DNA from: an uncultured Coriobacteriia bacterium
GTDB taxonomy: Bacteria > Actinomycetota > Coriobacteriia > Anaerosomatales > Anaerosomataceae
DNA length: 34,490 bases
Assembly (NCBI GenBank): GCA_927439865.1
Contig: CAKMKD010000172.1
Location: 1 to 34,490 of the forward strand
Direction: 5' to 3'
Shown here: positions 3,231 through 29,448 of the stretch, in pieces
How the letters are laid out: the number at the start of each line of letters is the position of its first letter
How positions within the stretch are numbered: the first letter of the stretch is position 1
Made by a program: the position numbers and the translations under genes
Notes under the pieces: generated by a model
The model's database searches: none
What the model was told of the DNA's origin: nothing
Seen by the model: only the letters and a program-made list of their open reading frames with translations

Positions 3231-4189
3231 TGGGCACCTCCTGAGGTGGCGGCGTTCCACTCGGCCACGAGTCTCTCCATGAGTTCGCGAACGGTGGGAA
3301 CGTCGTTGATCCGTGCCGCTGCCGAGCCGGCGAACACGAGCCCCTCGGTGACATCGCCTTGCTGGGCGCGAACGAGCTTGTCGATGATGCAGTAATCCTT
3401 GCCGCAATCCTTGAGGCACGCCACACACCGCTCGATGATCGGATAGTCTCCGGCGGCAAGGCGGTCCGTAAGCGGGTTGCGAATCGCGCGCCCGGGCAGT
3501 CCGACCGGGCTCTTGGTGAGCACGATGTCGGCGTCGGTCGCATTCACATACATCTGCTTGAATTCATCGGATGCTGAGGACTCGATCGTTGCGGCGAAAC
3601 GGCTCCCCATCTGGACACCGGCAGCGCCAGCGTCAAGCGTGCGCTTGATGTCTGCGCCGGTCACCACCCCTCCGGCCGCGATGACGGGGATGCTCACGGA
3701 ATCGAGGATCCTCGGCAACAAGTCAAGCATGTACTCGTCCGTGCCGAGATGCCCGCCCGCTTCGTAGCCCTCGACAACAACAGCTGACGCGCCGAACCGC
3801 TCAGAGAGTTTCGCAACGCGCTCCGAGCCAACGATCGGCACATACTCGACGCCGGCTTCTCGGCACCAGCCGAACGCGTCACGCGAGAATCCTGCCCCCG
3901 CGATGACGACGTCGACCCCCTCGGCGATCGCCACCTGTACGAGCTCCTTGAACGCCCGGATGGCGACCATGATGTTGACGCCGACGACGCCTGATGTTGC
4001 AGTGCGCGCCGCCCGGATTTCCTGAGCGAGTTCATCGGCAGTGAGGCCTGAGCCGGCGATGATTCCCACGCCCCCGGCCTCGGCAACAGCTGCAGCGAGC
4101 GGCGAAAGGGAGATGCGCACGGCCATGCCGCCCTGAACGATAGGCAGTCGGGCCGTTCTGCTTCCTATGGTGAGCGGGGGCAGCTCCAC
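3227..4189 (-). CDS. FabK-like / nitronate monooxygenase-family FMN oxidoreductase with cysteine cluster
   Basis: This 320-residue TIM-barrel flavoprotein belongs to the FabK / nitronate monooxygenase (NPD, YrpB) family. Visible motifs are PIVQGGMA near the N-terminus, VEGYEAGGHLG with His147 at the usual active-site place, PVIAAGGV, and GVQMGSRF in the FMN-phosphate region. Unlike the second FabK copy in this window it has a Cys cluster near the C-terminus (C255, C258, C262, C267; spacing C-x2-C-x3-C-x4-C) followed by a GLVFAGSAAARI tail. It starts at GTG 4189 with GGAGGA about 5 bases upstream; its stop overlaps the fabF start. Position between acpP and fabF suggests a role in fatty-acid metabolism, for example as a second enoyl reductase, but nitronate oxidation or another flavin reaction cannot be excluded. 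Confidence 0.85.
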   Translation of the reverse strand: MELPPLTIGSRTARLPIVQGGMAVRISLSPLAAAVAEAGGVGIIAGSGLTADELAQEIRAARTATSGVVGVNIMVAIRAFKELVQVAIAEGVDVVIAGAGFSRDAFGWCREAGVEYVPIVGSERVAKLSERFGASAVVVEGYEAGGHLGTDEYMLDLLPRILDSVSIPVIAAGGVVTGADIKRTLDAGAAGVQMGSRFAATIESSASDEFKQMYVNATDADIVLTKSPVGLPGRAIRNPLTDRLAAGDYPIIERCVACLKDCGKDYCIIDKLVRAQQGDVTEGLVFAGSAAARINDVPTVRELMERLVAEWNAATSGGAQ

Positions 4190-20336: not shown

Positions 20337-22088
20337 TCAGGTCCGCTGGCGTACCGGAGCCCGGTCGATTCCCTGCGTGAGCAGGTCCCTAAGGACCTCA
20401 ACAACGGTGGGATCGAACTGGGCTCCTGCTTTATCCGAGAGTTCCGCGAGCGCCTGGCTCTGGCTCATCGCAGCCCGATACGGACGGTCGGATGTCATTG
20501 CGACGAAGGCATCAGCAACCGCAAGTATGCGAGCGCCGAGTGGGATGGTCTCACCCGACAGTCCCCCGCCGTATCCGTGGCCATCGAACCACTCATGATG
20601 GTGATACACGATTGGTACGACTCCCTGGAGTGCAGGAAGCTCGCTCAGTATGTCCGCAGCGATCTGCGGATGGAGCTTGAGGACACCGTGCTCCAGCGTG
20701 GAGAGCGGGCGACTCAGGGAGCCAAGAGCCTCCCCGGTGGTAGACATCCCGATGTCATGAAGCAGCGCAGCCACCCTGAGTGCTTCGCGTTGCGCATCCG
20801 GCAGCCCGAATGCATCGCCGATTGCTGTTGCGTACGACAGCACGCGTTCTGTGCCGCCGCGTGAGTACGGATCCTTCGTCTCAAGAGCGAGGGCGAGCGC
20901 CTTGAGCGTCTCGAAGTAGAGCTCGCGTGATGACGTCACCGCGTTGGCGTTGCGCAACGCGACTGCCGTCTGCTTGCCGAGCGTCTCAAGCGCGCGCATA
21001 TGCGACTCGGTGAACCTGGCCGGGAAACCACGGCTACCAACGTTGAGAACACCCATCGTCCCGTCTGCATCCGAGATCGGGACTGAAACCGCTGAACGAA
21101 TCCCATGCCGACGGCCGGACTTTGGCTTAGCCGGCAAGTCTTCGATCAGCAGGGGTTGGCCAGTAGCAAGGACCCACCCTGCGATTCCCTCTCCTTCGGA
21201 CAACGAGGTGTCGCGCACCACTTCGGCAGGCAGGCCATCGGCCTTGACGATGGTGAGCCTGCCCGAAGTATCGTCGATCAGCATGATGCTGCCCGTGGCT
21301 GCTTCGGAGATGCGCATCGCCGTCTGAAGCGCGGCTGTCAGGACCTCATCCGGATCAAGCTTCCTGCTCAGGTCACGCGCTACCTCTATGAGCGCGGTGG
21401 CCATCTCGGTCTCAGTGCGGGCGACATGAAGCGCCAGGCTGCCTGTCAAAGCTCCACGTAGCGGCGCGCTCAGTCTGGCAAGCTGTGCGCCGTCAGGGTC
21501 TGCGGTGACCGACAGATCAACGCCAACGACGCCCCTGGAGGTTCCGGGAGTGAGCGGCACCGCGAAGCGCCAGATCACGTGCTCCACGCCGCCGGACTGC
21601 ATCCGCGCCAGCGGGGCCAACGTTGATACGCCAGACGTGATCGATGTGCCAAGAATGGGGTCGTCGAGCGACTGGGGCTGCGTTGAGGGGCTCATCGGCC
21701 CGACAGCCGATACGAGGCGCAGCGTGGCCGAGGAAGGGTCTTCGAGCCACATGTGGGCTGCGACAACGTGGGCAACGGGCGCAACCGCATCCGCGAGCGC
21801 ATGCAAGACCGTATCGGCTTCGAGTGTGGGAGGTACACGAAGCTCGGGGCTCGGTGATGACACGGCAGCAGGCGTCTGAGGTGTCGAGTCGGCCTCGGGA
21901 GTCTTGTGACGCGCAGGTAGCACGGATGTCCCGATGGCGACAACAGCGAATGCGCCGCCGAGAATGCCGAGGAACGGCTGGCTCCAGGCGACCGCAGCTA
22001 TGGCGGCGAAGAATGCGAGAACGGCGAATGCCACGGCGCCGCCGCTCGGGCGACCGCCTACGTCATGCGATGTCGATTCTCTGGACAC
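20337..22088 (-). CDS. Membrane-linked GAF and HD-GYP-like signalling protein
   Basis: This 583-residue protein starts with two probable membrane helices (about residues 18-58). A divergent GAF-like region (about 90-225), a clearer GAF domain (about 235-385) and a C-terminal HD-GYP-type phosphodiesterase domain (about 390-570) follow. The HD pair is H444-D445 (ALLHDIGM) and the HHE motif is at 497-499. The name-giving GYP motif reads GYG at 505-507, and HDIGK reads HDIGM. HD-GYP proteins usually break down cyclic di-GMP; these changes leave activity uncertain. I chose GTG 22088, preceded by GGGGGTGA; GTG 22151 would add 21 residues and has no clear ribosome site. It follows thiN closely and may be co-transcribed with the thiamine genes. 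Confidence 0.85.
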   Translation of the reverse strand: MSRESTSHDVGGRPSGGAVAFAVLAFFAAIAAVAWSQPFLGILGGAFAVVAIGTSVLPARHKTPEADSTPQTPAAVSSPSPELRVPPTLEADTVLHALADAVAPVAHVVAAHMWLEDPSSATLRLVSAVGPMSPSTQPQSLDDPILGTSITSGVSTLAPLARMQSGGVEHVIWRFAVPLTPGTSRGVVGVDLSVTADPDGAQLARLSAPLRGALTGSLALHVARTETEMATALIEVARDLSRKLDPDEVLTAALQTAMRISEAATGSIMLIDDTSGRLTIVKADGLPAEVVRDTSLSEGEGIAGWVLATGQPLLIEDLPAKPKSGRRHGIRSAVSVPISDADGTMGVLNVGSRGFPARFTESHMRALETLGKQTAVALRNANAVTSSRELYFETLKALALALETKDPYSRGGTERVLSYATAIGDAFGLPDAQREALRVAALLHDIGMSTTGEALGSLSRPLSTLEHGVLKLHPQIAADILSELPALQGVVPIVYHHHEWFDGHGYGGGLSGETIPLGARILAVADAFVAMTSDRPYRAAMSQSQALAELSDKAGAQFDPTVVEVLRDLLTQGIDRAPVRQRT

Positions 22089-22166
22089 GTCACCCCCGCC
22101 AGTGATAAGCGTCGGCGCGACGACTCGTCCCGCCGAAGGATGTATCGGCACGAAGCCGGATATTCT

Positions 22167-23620: not shown

Positions 23621-24658
23621 CTACTCCATTTGCCTCAGGTAGGAGTAGGGATTCACCGGAGCTCCCCCACCGGGGTGAATCTGGAAGTGGAGATGCGGTG
23701 CGCTCGCCGACGCATTCCCAGTTGAACCCACGTAGCCGATGAGCTCACCCGCCTGCACGCGCCCGGAGGTGCGCACGTAGCTGTTCAGGTGCGCGTAGTA
23801 GAACTCCCAGCCATTATCGGCAGTGAGCCAGATGGTCTTACCACCAAGGGAACTCGACTTCGACCGAACCGTGCCGGCGAGGACAGCCACGCACGGCGTC
23901 CCTGTCCGCGCCATGATGTCCGTGCCCTTGTGGGTGCGACCACCCGAGCGGGCGGCTCCCCATGTGTTCGAGTAGTAGTACGAGCCCTGCACCGGGAAGA
24001 CCATCCCATTCGGGCCTGCAGGATAGCGCGTGTTCCCTGCCTTCGGGCGTCCTGCGTTCTGCTTCGCCACTGCCGCGGCGAGCTTCTTCTGAACGGCGGC
24101 GTACTCGGACTCAACCCCCTTGAGCTTCTTGTCGAGGGCTGCGGCCTTTGACTTCAGGGACTTGGCCTCGGCAGACTGGTCGGCTTTAGCTTCCTCGATC
24201 GCTGCCTTTTCCGAGACGAGTTCCGCCTGAAGCGTCTTCACCTCGGCAACAACATCAGCATCCTGCTCACCGATTCGGCTCACGTACTCAAGTCGGACGA
24301 GCATGTCATCGAGCGTGTCGCTCGTGAGCAAGAGTGCGAGGTAGTCGACGTCTCCTTGCCGGTACATCTCGGCCGCATGATTGCCGAGGCGCGCCGAGGC
24401 CTTTGCGAGCTTCTCCTTGGTGGTGGAGAGACTCTTGTTGGTGGCAGAGAGTTTGGCGTTGGTCGCGTCGAGTTTCCAGTACGCCTTCGAGTACGCATCG
24501 CCGGCCTTCTGTGACTCCTTGCGCAAGGCGGCGAGCTGATCCTTGAGTTTGTCGACTTCGGATTTTGCACCGAAGGCCCGGGCAGCGGGCAGCATCAACG
24601 CGGCCAGTGCGACCACGATGACGAACCATGTGTATATGCGTCGGCTGCCTTTAGTCAT
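23621..24658 (-). CDS. Secreted coiled-coil M23 (LytM-type) peptidase, EnvC-like
   Basis: This 345-residue protein has an N-terminal signal or anchor segment (about residues 9-30), a long coiled coil (about 32-200) and a C-terminal M23/LytM domain (about 218-340). The zinc and catalytic residues are intact: H243 and D247 (HKGTD), H290 (YYAHLN), and H322 with H324 (PHLHFQ). It should cleave peptide bridges of peptidoglycan outside the membrane, unlike EnvC-type activators that have lost these residues. The ATG at 24658 has AGGA about 8 bases upstream. It lies 36 bases after the PASTA/pseudo-amidase gene and is probably co-transcribed with it. Confidence 0.9.
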   Translation of the reverse strand: MTKGSRRIYTWFVIVVALAALMLPAARAFGAKSEVDKLKDQLAALRKESQKAGDAYSKAYWKLDATNAKLSATNKSLSTTKEKLAKASARLGNHAAEMYRQGDVDYLALLLTSDTLDDMLVRLEYVSRIGEQDADVVAEVKTLQAELVSEKAAIEEAKADQSAEAKSLKSKAAALDKKLKGVESEYAAVQKKLAAAVAKQNAGRPKAGNTRYPAGPNGMVFPVQGSYYYSNTWGAARSGGRTHKGTDIMARTGTPCVAVLAGTVRSKSSSLGGKTIWLTADNGWEFYYAHLNSYVRTSGRVQAGELIGYVGSTGNASASAPHLHFQIHPGGGAPVNPYSYLRQME

Positions 24659-24694: not shown

Positions 24695-25774
24695 TCACGC
24701 CTTCCCGAATGTGGCCCCCAGCGCACGGTAGAGAGCGCGCGCTACGACGTCGGCCCAGGCGGGGTCACTGAAGAGCGATGTGTCCCCGGGAGTCGTGGTG
24801 TTGCCGAGAATAACGCGCACGCCCGGAGCGCCTGACGCTGTCAGGAGTGGACTCGTCGAGGCGACGGGCGTGTGCACCTGCTGTCCGGGCGCGCGGAGCG
24901 CTTCGGTCATGCTTCCGGCAAGGCGTGCCGTGTCAGCGGTCGCCGACGCGTTGCCTGACGGTCGCGTGGTCACCTGAATGCCTTCAGGGCCCGTGACCGC
25001 AACGTCGAGCGCGACAACGACTGTGGCGGTGGACTCGGCGATGATCGCGGCACGATCAGCCGAGGATGTCGATGTGGAGATCGCGCTTCTCGTAATCACG
25101 ACTGTCGCTCCGGACGCCTTGAGGAGCGAGTCGAGCCGTCTGGCCACCTCAAGCGTGGTATCGCTACCTGTTGGCATCGGGGCCGGGTCGATGACAACCG
25201 TGACCCCGCCCATCGTGTAAGGAAGCAGTAGCGATGACGAAAGCGATCGTCCCGCAACGCGGAGCCGGACTGTGGAGCCATTGCGGACTTCCTGGCCGGA
25301 GGTGGGGAACGTCTCTGTCACGACACCTTCGGAGGCTGAAGCCTCGACCGTCTCGAGCGTCACCCGCAGGCCGAGCGTCTCGAGGGAGGCGCGGGCATCC
25401 TCGGACATGGTGCCTACCACATCGGGCATGACGAAGGTCTCAGAGCCGGCCGAGACGATGATCGTAATCGTGTCTCCGCGCCGAACGAGCGCACCGGCGG
25501 GCGGTTCCTGGGAGATGATCGAGCCCTTCGGGACCAAGACGGAAAACCACTCCCCGCCAACGGTTGTGATGAGGCCGGCACTTCCGAGAACGGCGGTGCC
25601 TTCGAGGGTGGTCTTGCCGGCAACGGCGGGTACGGCGATGAGCCCGCTTCGCATCGTGATCACGATGGCCGAGGTAGCAGCAATCACAATGACCGCGATC
25701 GAAACTGCGGTCACTACCAACCATCTGGGTATGAGAGGGCGGCGCCGTGGCCGCTCGGTAAGCAGTTCGTCCAT
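24695..25774 (-). CDS. Membrane-anchored PASTA protein with degenerate amidase_3-like domain
   Basis: This 359-residue protein has a basic cytoplasmic tail, one membrane helix (about 17-40), two PASTA repeats (about 44-110 and 111-176) and a C-terminal domain (about 188-355) with the fold pattern of N-acetylmuramoyl-L-alanine amidase type 3. The expected zinc-site motifs are altered: DPGHGG reads DPAPMP (196-201), the later SIHAN region reads ALDVAV (255-260), and the VELGF glutamate region reads VILGN (321-325). It is therefore probably a non-catalytic, wall-binding or regulatory protein. ATG 25774 has no ribosome site and a TATACT box lies only 7 bases upstream, so the message may be leaderless. 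The gene precedes an intact M23 peptidase. Confidence 0.78.
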   Translation of the reverse strand: MDELLTERPRRRPLIPRWLVVTAVSIAVIVIAATSAIVITMRSGLIAVPAVAGKTTLEGTAVLGSAGLITTVGGEWFSVLVPKGSIISQEPPAGALVRRGDTITIIVSAGSETFVMPDVVGTMSEDARASLETLGLRVTLETVEASASEGVVTETFPTSGQEVRNGSTVRLRVAGRSLSSSLLLPYTMGGVTVVIDPAPMPTGSDTTLEVARRLDSLLKASGATVVITRSAISTSTSSADRAAIIAESTATVVVALDVAVTGPEGIQVTTRPSGNASATADTARLAGSMTEALRAPGQQVHTPVASTSPLLTASGAPGVRVILGNTTTPGDTSLFSDPAWADVVARALYRALGATFGKA

Positions 25775-25781
25775 ATGCGCA

Positions 25782-25787
25782 AGTATA
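25782..25787 (-). promoter_or_regulatory. -10 box for a probably leaderless PASTA-protein transcript
   Basis: TATACT on the minus strand ends 7 bases before the ATG at 25774, so a transcript starting at the usual distance would begin at or next to the start codon. No ribosome site is seen. Leaderless messages are common in Actinobacteria. A good -35 box is not visible at 16-18 bases. Confidence 0.45.
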
Positions 25788-25871: not shown

Positions 25872-26159
25872 ATGCCGGCATACGACTACAAGTGCCCGAA
25901 CTGTGCGTGCGTGTTCGAAGTGACGCGGGGCATCAAGGAGTCTGGACCTATCGCGTGTCCTGAATGCTCTGCCGAGGCGAAGCGCATCTTCTCGCCGGTA
26001 GGAATCGTCTTCAAGGGGACTGGCTTCCACAACACCGACTACCGCGCCAAGAAGGCGATTCCCGCGCCGTCGGAAGGCGCGAGCAGCGAGAAGGCCGAGA
26101 AGCCCGCCTGTGGTGGCGATGGCTCCCCGGCCTGCGCGTCGTGCCCCGCTGCTGACTAG
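25872..26159 (+). CDS. FmdB-family zinc-ribbon protein
   Basis: This 95-residue protein begins MPAYDYKCPNC and has two CxxC pairs, C8/C11 and C29/C32, forming the FmdB (CxxC_CxxC_SSSS) putative regulatory zinc ribbon. After GTGFHNTDYRAKK comes a low-complexity tail with further cysteines (C80, C88, C91). The ATG at 25872 has GGAGG about 7 bases upstream. It is divergent from the PASTA gene and convergent with glpX, whose stop is only three bases away. The name comes from a formamidase regulator, but the role here is unknown. Confidence 0.88.
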   Translation: MPAYDYKCPNCACVFEVTRGIKESGPIACPECSAEAKRIFSPVGIVFKGTGFHNTDYRAKKAIPAPSEGASSEKAEKPACGGDGSPACASCPAAD

Positions 26160-26168
26160 CAGCTAGTC
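26154..26168. other. Palindrome spanning two convergent stop codons
   Basis: GACTAG-CAG-CTAGTC is a 6-bp inverted repeat over a three-base centre. Each arm is the last Asp codon plus TAG stop of one gene: the FmdB-family gene on the plus strand and glpX on the minus strand. It is too short and lacks a T-run, so it is a doubtful terminator. Confidence 0.5.
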
Positions 26169-27128
26169 CATCCGCACCCAGAACTTCTCGGTGCCGGTGC
26201 GGTAAACCGTCTCGATGAAGCGCACGGTACCGGTCTTGTTGTCCATTGCGATCGAGTGAGTTCTTGCGCCCTTGCCGAAGTACTTGACGCCGCGAAGCAT
26301 CTCGCCGTCAGTGACGCCGGTTGCGATGAACGCGGCCTCATCGGTGTTGACGAGGCAATCCATGGTGAGAACGCCGTCAATGTCGCACTGCGACATCGTG
26401 AGTGCCCGGGCACGTTCCTCGGGGCTACGGAATTCGAAGCGGCCCATAAACGTTCCGCCGATGCACTTCATGGCGGCTGCCGCGAGCACGCCTTCCGGCG
26501 CCCCGCCTGCACCCATGTAGAGGTGAATGCCGGTGCCTTCGATGGCTGTCGCCACGGCGCCGAACACGTCACCGTCGGAGATGAGGCGAATCCTCGCGCC
26601 GGTTGCACGCACTTCCGCGATGAGGTCGTTGTGGCGGTCACGCTCGAGGATGCAGACCACGATATCGTCTACTGGTCGATTCAGCGCCTTGGCTACGTTT
26701 TTGACGTTCTCGGTCGGAGTGGCGTCGATATGAACAGAGCCATTCGCCGAGGGACCGGCGGCCACCTTCCACATGTAGGTGTCCGGCGCGTTCAGAAGGG
26801 TACCCTTGGGCCCGAATGCGAGCACAGCAAGTGAGTTCGGCTGGCCGTACGCCGTGAGGTTGGTGCCCTCAAGCGGATCGACCGCGATGTCGATCTCCTC
26901 GCCGCCACCGCCGACCTTCTCGCCGATGAACAGCATCGGGGCCTCATCGCGCTCGCCCTCACCGATGACGATCTCGCCGGAGATGTCCAGGATGTCAAAC
27001 GCGGTTCGCATGGCTTCAACAGCAGCTTTGTCAGCCGCGTCCTTGTCGCCCTTCCCCATCCAGCGAGCTGCAGCAAGTGCCGCCGCCTCGGTAACCTCGA
27101 GCATCTCAACGATACGGGTGCTGCGCAT
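26163..27128 (-). CDS. glpX: Fructose-1,6-bisphosphatase class II
   Basis: This 321-residue enzyme hydrolyses fructose-1,6-bisphosphate in gluconeogenesis. Motifs of the class II (GlpX) family are visible: [12 protein letters not shown] (55-66) and VDPLEGTN (83-90) for metal and phosphate, then [20 protein letters not shown] and the [10 protein letters not shown] segment near the C-terminus. The ATG at 27128 has GGAGG four bases upstream. It follows rsmB by 32 bases and ends three bases from the convergent FmdB gene. Many homologues also act on sedoheptulose bisphosphate; the sequence does not settle that. Confidence 0.96.
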
Positions 27129-27160
27129 AGTGCCTCCCCATCCTCGCGGTCGAGCGAACG

Positions 27161-28531
27161 CTAGCCTTCTTCGACCTGTTTCATGAGTCGTGCTACGAAA
27201 TGCCCGTCAGGCCCATCGTGTTCCGGCACCGAGCGGAACCAGCCCTGCGACGTAACGTGACGTTGCCATTCATGCGGAACGGTGCTGCTCACACTGACCG
27301 ATCGAAACGCGTTGCCCGCGCTCTCGGCCAGGAACTTCCCCACCACGCCGTCGTTCTCGGCGCGGGTGATACTGCACGTAGAATACACTACATGCCCACC
27401 CGGCCGGACGAGCGAAGCGAGTGCCGAGAGCATCTTCAACTGCAGATCTGCCATTCGAGGGACGTCGTCAGCGCTCACATTCCACCGCTGCTCCGGGTGG
27501 CGTCGCAGTGTGCCGAGACCGGTGCACGGTGCGTCGAGCAAGACCGCATCAAAGCCGCCGGGTGGGGTCGGGATTGCGCTCGGATCGAGGATGTCACCGG
27601 TGATCGCCTCAACTCCCGGAACCGCGAGGCCGTCCATCCGCTGACGCAGAAGCTTCGTCTTGAACTCGTGCACGTCGAGACTCACGATGCGCGCCGGACC
27701 GCCGAGAGCAACTGCGGTCGCCTGCAAGAAGAGGGTCTTCGTGCCACGACCAGCCCCGGCGTCAAGAATCGTCATGCCGGGCTTCGCCTCGACCGCAAGC
27801 GGAGCCACCTGAGCTGCAGCGTCGGTGACCAGGAAGTACCCTCCGGCAAGCGCCAGGCCGCGAACCGCAGCGCGCTCATTCTGTACGACGACGCACGCCG
27901 CGTCAGGAGGTGCGCTGAACGGCTCAGCGCCATCCTCGCGTAGGACTTCGAGGGCGGTATCAAAGCTCGCCCTGAACGGGTTGTGCCTCAAATAGAGCGG
28001 AGCCGGTGCATTGTCGGCTTCAAGGATCGCGCGTGCCACTTCGAAGTCGTTCTCATCGGCAATGAGCTCGGCGAGCCAAACCGGGTGTCCGGTCGAACGA
28101 GCGAGGGCGCTGATGTCCGCCGCCGCGTCGCCCCAGGGGAACGTCTCGGCTTCGTCAGCGATGCGTCGAAGCACTGCATTGGCGAGTCCGGCCGCTTGAG
28201 GTCGTACCCGGCGGACCGCCTCGACGCCTTGATGAACTGCGGCCCGGGCTGGCGTGCGCATGAAGAGGATCTCGTAGGCAGCCATGCGGAGTGCGTCGCG
28301 GACCCTGGGTTCGACTGCGCCGGGCTTGGACACCCGACCGTCGATCACCTCGTCGAGGGTGCCAAGCGTCTCGATCACTCCACGTGCAAGCCGGGTCACC
28401 AGCGCATGGTCCGCGTCGGAAAGTGATGCGCGACCGAGCTGCGTCTCGAGGACAGGCGCAAGGTACGCGTGACGTTCCCGGACTGCGGCGAGGACCTTGA
28501 GGGTGACGGCTCGTGCTGCAGTGACGCTCAT
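27161..28531 (-). CDS. rsmB: 16S rRNA (cytosine967-C5)-methyltransferase
   Basis: This 456-residue enzyme has an N-terminal NusB-like RNA-binding domain (about 1-145) and a C-terminal SAM-dependent methyltransferase domain. The SAM loop is [10 protein letters not shown] (257-266). The two catalytic cysteines are C336 in [14 protein letters not shown] and C386 in YSTCSI. The ATG at 28531 has GGAGG five bases upstream and overlaps the fmt stop (ATGA). The def-fmt-rsmB order is conserved. The C-terminus ends in a normal GHFVARL motif. Confidence 0.96.
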
Positions 28532-29448
28532 GCGCGCCTCCAGGAGGCTTCGTCGCTCAGGCGCGAGCCGCGCGCCCAGGCTGAGCCATCGACGGCTGTC
28601 TTGCCCGCTGGCTGTATCCGGTCGACAAGGACAGCTCCGTCCGAGAAGCCCAGCAGAAGCCCGTCGCTTACACGACAGGCGACGCCGGCGGGAATGGCAG
28701 CCTCGGCGGCGACCGCGCGGAGCAGCGTGAGGTCTACGCCCTCGATATGTATGCGAACGGGCGCCTGACGTGACGACGAACGCACCCTGCGGAGCGCGTC
28801 CGCCATCGAAAGCGCAGGATCGAGCGCGATGTCATCCTTGGTTATTTTGGCGGCGTAGGTTGCGTCAGCATCGTTCTGGGAGGTCCACGAGACGGTGCCA
28901 TCCTCGATATGTCGCAAAACCTCGATGAGCGCTTGTGCGCCGAGCTCGGCAAGGCAGCCGGTGAGATCGACCGCGTTGAGGTCTTCGATTTCAACCGAGC
29001 GCTGCAGCGCGAATGGTCCTGTGTCGAGCCCCTCTTCCATCAGCATGATGCTGACACCTGTCACACGGTCACCGGCAAGAATCGCTCGATGTACGGGCGC
29101 AGCTCCCCGATAACGCGGGAGAAGCGAAGCATGTACGTTCACGCACCCGTGCTCAGGGACTGCCAGCACCTCAGGTGGTAGCAGCAGTCCGTACGCGGCG
29201 ACGACGATCACGTCAGGGGCGTCCGCGCGAAGAGCGTCAACCACTTCGGCCGACCGGAGTGATGCCGGCTGAAAGACGGGGATGCCGAGATGCTCGGCTG
29301 CTGTCTTCACAGGAGGTGCGACAAGCGCCTTCCCGCGACCCGACACGGCGTCCGGCCGTGTGTAGACGGTAACGACTTCGTGTTCCTCGGCCAGACGTCT
29401 AAGAATGGGCACCGAGAATTCCGGCGTACCCATGAACACGATTCGCAC
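28528..29448 (-). CDS. fmt: Methionyl-tRNA formyltransferase
   Basis: This 306-residue enzyme formylates Met-tRNA for initiation using 10-formyl-tetrahydrofolate. The N-terminal MRIVFMGTPEFSVP, the catalytic set N104, H106 (VHASLLPRYRGAAP) and D142 (GLDTGP), and a C-terminal OB-like domain are visible. The start is GTG 29448 with GGGGGAGG four bases upstream. It lies after def in the def-fmt-rsmB operon. Confidence 0.97.
   Translation of the reverse strand: MRIVFMGTPEFSVPILRRLAEEHEVVTVYTRPDAVSGRGKALVAPPVKTAAEHLGIPVFQPASLRSAEVVDALRADAPDVIVVAAYGLLLPPEVLAVPEHGCVNVHASLLPRYRGAAPVHRAILAGDRVTGVSIMLMEEGLDTGPFALQRSVEIEDLNAVDLTGCLAELGAQALIEVLRHIEDGTVSWTSQNDADATYAAKITKDDIALDPALSMADALRRVRSSSRQAPVRIHIEGVDLTLLRAVAAEAAIPAGVACRVSDGLLLGFSDGAVLVDRIQPAGKTAVDGSAWARGSRLSDEASWRRA

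Follow-up and report, generated by a model that had tools for sequence, protein, structure and literature searches.

The window analysed here is a stretch of 34,490 nucleotides, and a gene on its minus strand at 24695..25774 encodes a protein of 359 amino acids, hereafter called the PASTA pseudo-amidase. The gene was delimited by its open reading frame and by orthologue starts; the start at 25774 agrees with the start position of most orthologues. All features of the protein that are described below lie on the same strand. Residues 7–18 form a short cytoplasmic tail, ERPRRRPLIPRW (25721..25756), whose Arg/Pro motif is conserved in orthologues as (R)ERPxRxPL(I/V)P and can be recognised in part of the outgroup. 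The tail leads into a membrane helix (residues 17–42; 25649..25726), supported by AlphaFold2 and by its hydrophobic sequence, which is followed by two PASTA repeats (PF03793) at 25451..25636 (6.0e-11) and 25253..25432 (3.9e-13). The Pfam match to PASTA has an overall value of 2.2e-24 in two stretches, with the repeats scoring 50.5 and 43.4 bits against a cut-off of 23.2, and the NCBIfam model PknB_PASTA_kin matched residues 17–175 (3.7e-24). A sequence-only reading of this DNA had proposed one membrane helix and two PASTA repeats, both of which were confirmed by AlphaFold2 and Pfam. The same reading had stated that no kinase is present. This holds for the protein itself, as Pfam and NCBIfam detected no Ser/Thr kinase domain in its 359 residues, but not for the genome, where a PASTA kinase with four or more repeats is encoded. 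A basic tail, a membrane helix and a PASTA stalk are common to the pseudo-amidase and PASTA Ser/Thr kinases (PknB/Stk1), whereas the pseudo-amidase has no kinase domain and carries a C-terminal amidase fold instead.

This C-terminal domain (residues 188–356; 24707..25213) was recognised by Pfam, profile alignment, AlphaFold2 and Foldseek as an Amidase_3 fold without a zinc site. The Amidase_3 match in Pfam covered residues 204–352 (1.3e-11; 45.2 bits, curated cut-off 27). The full-length AlphaFold2 model showed one helix at residues 17–42, a pair of PASTA folds and, starting at residue 188, an alpha/beta domain; the domain-only model, based on 44 domain sequences, reached a pLDDT of 94.8 and a pTM of 0.91. 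The best PDB match of the predicted domain in Foldseek was Rv3717 (E 1.5e-11, TMq 0.81), and the top matches were all Amidase_3 proteins (Rv3717, Ami1, CwlD, LytH and AmiB); the list also contained AmiB in complex with EnvC, as well as LytH with ActH. The amidase type 3 fold that had been read from the sequence was therefore borne out by Pfam and by the predicted structures, in which residues 188–356 resemble Amidase_3 enzymes rather than an unrelated fold. On these predictions, the domain is a member of the Amidase_3 (PF01520) fold family.

The catalytic positions were assigned by profile alignment to solved amidases and by a joint alignment with 15 paralogues, 14 of which carry the catalytic Glu. 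The position of the first zinc His is occupied by P199 (25178..25180; Pro in 46/50 orthologues), that of the zinc Glu by G203 (25166..25168; variable among orthologues), that of the second zinc His by D257 (25004..25006; Asp in 32/50, His in 0/50) and that of the catalytic Glu by I322 (24809..24811; variable, with Glu in 1/50 orthologues). The motifs DPAPMP, ALDVAV and VILGN were located where the earlier reading had placed them, and its claim of a lost zinc site held, with His, Glu, His and the catalytic Glu all replaced; the zinc Glu, replaced by G203, is a ligand which that reading had left unnamed. None of the 50 orthologues has a His at either zinc-His position, and His accounts for only 0.3% of the domain residues among them. 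Shifted His or Glu ligands were not found in the profile alignments, in the joint alignment with the 15 paralogues or in the 50 orthologues. Judged by its sequence, the protein lies outside the zinc N-acetylmuramoyl-L-alanine amidases, as the zinc ligands and the catalytic Glu are all absent. R320 (24815..24817), two residues N-terminal of the lost catalytic Glu, is present in 48/50 orthologues, and an equivalent also occurs in some CwlM-type amidases.

The loss extends to the remainder of the cleft. Residues with complete or almost complete conservation in active paralogues, namely H199, E203, N246, F253, H257, W313, E322 and N328, have been lost, and the loop joining the first two ligands has collapsed in the joint alignment. 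The structural residues D196, R229, R241, G265 and G324 are retained from the active paralogues. Strictly fixed in the dead orthologues are D331 together with D205, R213, A220, D337, P338, D342 and Y349, the latter seven being variable in active enzymes. Lost function combined with fixation at other positions appears here as the pattern of a re-used fold. Because the stem-peptide cleft is not conserved, the ancestral mode of wall binding is unlikely for the amidase domain.

Full-length orthologues were found in 54 of the 61 genomes of the order, with partial ones in two more. The order, assigned as Coriobacteriia, Anaerosomatales, was judged by named relatives, which include 'Anaerosomatales bacterium' and other Coriobacteriia; Anaerosomatales has been described previously (PMC9686372). 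An alignment of homologues, proposed earlier as a check, showed that the ligand loss is conserved across the order (50 orthologues) and in other families of the class. Pairwise dN/dS values of the amidase domain ranged from 0.04 to 0.20, although several dS values are near saturation and these ratios are rough. Distant full-length relatives in other families of the class (f86–f88) likewise lack the ligands, mostly sit at the equivalent chromosomal position, fmt-rsmB-(glpX)-[gene], and differ from the order in their residues at the old catalytic sites. All 34 sampled dead domains formed one clade (100/100) apart from active paralogues. Because the ligand loss is order-wide, dN/dS is low and the distant relatives are equally dead and belong to one clade, the protein is, as read from these comparisons, an ancient pseudo-enzyme under purifying selection. 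The genome assembly of the window is fragmented (213 contigs), which might suggest gene decay or an error of assembly; the intact gene in 54/61 genomes, the dN/dS range and the synteny kept over several families refute this idea, leaving it a negligible chance.

The pseudo-amidase gene was absent at the locus in sampled genomes of families f17–f19, which we take to be Coriobacteriales, and f90, and no orthologue-strength match was found outside the class in a sample of 396 phylum genomes. Two possible origins were considered and were unsupported by the tree: an origin from the CwlM lineage, hinted at by the shared VRVE and C-terminal helix, and derivation from the active PASTA-amidase found in these genomes. 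In genome G045, part of the pseudo-amidase domain is repeated in tandem as a truncated copy at 3303–3830 of L213, which is either a duplication or an assembly artefact.

Catalytically intact PASTA-Amidase_3 proteins occur in the same order, and L274, a PASTA-Amidase_3 protein with a full site, comes from a different family of the phylum. Thus, the fusion of PASTA to an amidase is itself neither new nor unusual there. The active proteins of the order resemble the pseudo-amidase in consisting of a membrane segment, PASTA and Amidase_3. In contrast, they have one PASTA repeat and the full HEHE site (DPGHQ, IHAD, VECGF), whereas the pseudo-amidase has two repeats and none of the site, and they belong to a separate clade and a different locus. 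In one paralogue of the active PASTA-amidases (L150, from G055), the catalytic Glu is replaced by Gln (SVQAGS) and the zinc ligands are retained. Loss of the Amidase_3 zinc site has occurred several times in the phylum sample. Among the other proteins observed, in which the losses were independent, L276 (family f56) has a PASTA repeat and a lost zinc site (DPGK, SIQM, VRVG), L269 (f39) has a PASTA repeat and has lost the first His alone, and L277 has lost its ligands (DPAR, AIDV, VQAG). L264, L267, L270, L271 and L273, with two PG_binding_1-like repeats and Amidase_3, formed a sub-clade of CwlM-type proteins with degenerate zinc sites (100/98).

Downstream of the pseudo-amidase gene, at 23621..24658 on the minus strand, lies a gene for a protein with an export signal, a PcsB-like coiled coil and an M23 peptidase domain with intact HxxxD and HxH motifs. 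These read HKGTD and HLH in the window, unlike the degenerate M23 site of EnvC-like activators. The M23 gene adjoins the pseudo-amidase gene in 39/50 loci, and its catalytic motifs are intact in every copy that includes the C-terminal part. In six genomes without this adjacency (five f5 genomes and G049), an M23 orthologue is placed elsewhere in the genome. A close M23 orthologue was not found in four f7 genomes, G055 and three outgroup genomes that were searched, all of which retain the pseudo-amidase; conversely, G011 has the M23 gene and no pseudo-amidase. The link between the two genes, mostly adjacent but with M23 missing in some genomes, is therefore strong but not obligate.

The wider neighbourhood, in which gene names are taken from sequence, is also conserved. 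A divergent FmdB-type zinc-ribbon gene (25872..26159, plus strand) is a conserved neighbour in the order, and upstream glpX, rsmB and fmt (26163..29448, minus strand) keep their order, also in outgroup families. The M23 gene is followed by ThiT and then thiamine pyrophosphokinase, and downstream of these thiamine genes a GAF and HD-GYP-like protein (20337–22151 of the window) is conserved in the order. A TATACT −10-like box lies at 25782..25787 on the minus strand, 8–13 bases 5′ of the ATG, and a similar box occurs in the range −20 to −8 in 31/50 orthologues. This position suggests that the gene has its own promoter and a leaderless mRNA, with the transcript starting at or beside the ATG. The M23 protein was also considered as a hydrolase of an FtsX operon and rejected, as FtsX is located elsewhere and the window M23 gene does not adjoin it. 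In G003 and G012 (L247 and L248), ftsEX is apparently followed by a gene for an S41-type C-terminal processing protease, with no M23 or NlpC hydrolase directly after ftsEX (both judged by eye).

The nearest precedent of the pseudo-amidase is CwlM (Rv3915) of mycobacteria, an Amidase_3 protein with lost zinc ligands that is an essential regulator of wall synthesis via MurA (PMC4946905). Both have an Amidase_3 domain that has lost its zinc ligands, and CwlM-type proteins were among the best non-orthologous profile matches in the phylum. However, CwlM is cytoplasmic and controls MurA, whereas the pseudo-amidase, with its membrane helix and PASTA repeats, is predicted to be extracytoplasmic. The CwlM-type proteins compared carry two PG_binding_1-like repeats, as named from sequence, in place of PASTA. 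None of the four ligands remains in the pseudo-amidase, and the CwlM-type clade (100/99) excludes it. A second precedent is EnvC, an M23 protein without catalytic residues that activates AmiA and AmiB (PMC4946905). In this system, a dead hydrolase homologue controls live hydrolases, with amidase and M23 folds as partners, as is proposed here, although the roles are exchanged: in E. coli the M23 protein EnvC is dead and the amidases are live, whereas in the window the amidase has lost its site and the M23 protein encoded next to it has not, and the pairing would be a presumed one. The precedents of CwlM and EnvC indicate that wall hydrolase folds are re-used as regulators.

We propose, with a probability of about 50%, that the pseudo-amidase is a non-catalytic adaptor that is tethered to the membrane, binds the wall and positions or controls wall hydrolases, chiefly the neighbouring M23 enzyme in most of the order. 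The earlier reading had suggested a wall sensor or an activator or scaffold for hydrolases, a reasonable but hypothetical function; the M23 neighbour, the Arg/Pro motif and the active PASTA-Amidase_3 paralogues of the order were not part of it. PASTA repeats as a family bring proteins to peptidoglycan. The membrane helix and the two PASTA repeats would hold the dead amidase domain outside the cell, with the repeats presumably binding wall or septal peptidoglycan as assumed from their family. With its cleft lost, the Amidase_3 shell would be more likely to dock proteins than to bind peptides. Together, PASTA repeats and shell could place or gate wall hydrolases, and the M23 endopeptidase would be the natural client wherever it is present. 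The conserved Arg/Pro tail would probably provide a link to an intracellular division or growth protein; in B. subtilis, GpsB is recruited to wall enzymes by a membrane-proximal arginine motif (PMC6335420). Against the adaptor, the partnership with M23 is not strict, and the adjacency of the two genes may reflect only shared expression.

A protein that merely anchors itself or a tail partner at the septum, with PASTA repeats and shell binding peptidoglycan and no hydrolase being regulated, would account for the conservation of the PASTA repeats and, in part, of the tail motif even where M23 is absent, and the GpsB system is in line with such a role. However, ancestral-type wall binding is improbable given that the stem-peptide cleft of active enzymes is not conserved, and the tail contains no strict SRxxR(R/K) match; we regard this explanation as possible but doubtful. 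Another candidate role is the regulation of a live Amidase_3 paralogue, for instance through a mixed dimer formed with the active PASTA-amidase that its own genome encodes. Pairing with active paralogues is common among pseudo-enzymes, active PASTA-Amidase_3 paralogues exist in many of these genomes, and a fragment with IRIHAD and VECGF is present in the genome of the window. Nevertheless, the pseudo-amidase is kept in G353 (98% complete), where it is the only Amidase_3 match, and in G361 (90%), where the Pfam model gave no Amidase_3 match. Control limited to an active Amidase_3 paralogue is therefore unlikely as a general function.

Finally, the domain could still catalyse a reaction with an altered or metal-free site, since its fold is intact and strong conservation of D196, D205 and R320 is seen around the former active site. 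However, residues 203 and 322 vary, proline occupies position 199, the loop of the cleft has disappeared and the former catalytic positions hold other residues in the outgroup, so that residual catalysis seems very improbable.

Literature searches for a PASTA pseudo-amidase returned nothing relevant, and the known examples of pseudo-enzymes that regulate wall hydrolases are chiefly dead M23 proteins and CwlM. Tentatively, the adaptor could represent a family not described before and present across much of one class, whose members are extracytoplasmic, PASTA-anchored pseudo-amidases controlling live endopeptidases in a reversal of the EnvC-AmiB arrangement. By the same tentative reasoning, repeated independent deaths of Amidase_3 linked to wall modules in Actinomycetota might point to a general regulatory role of the fold. 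A dead amidase that is under selection across an order, carried by PASTA repeats and encoded next to a live M23 enzyme, offers a testable case, in a lineage with cultured members (Anaerosoma and Parvivirga), of how cutting of the cell wall could be controlled by a wall-binding receptor that lacks a kinase.
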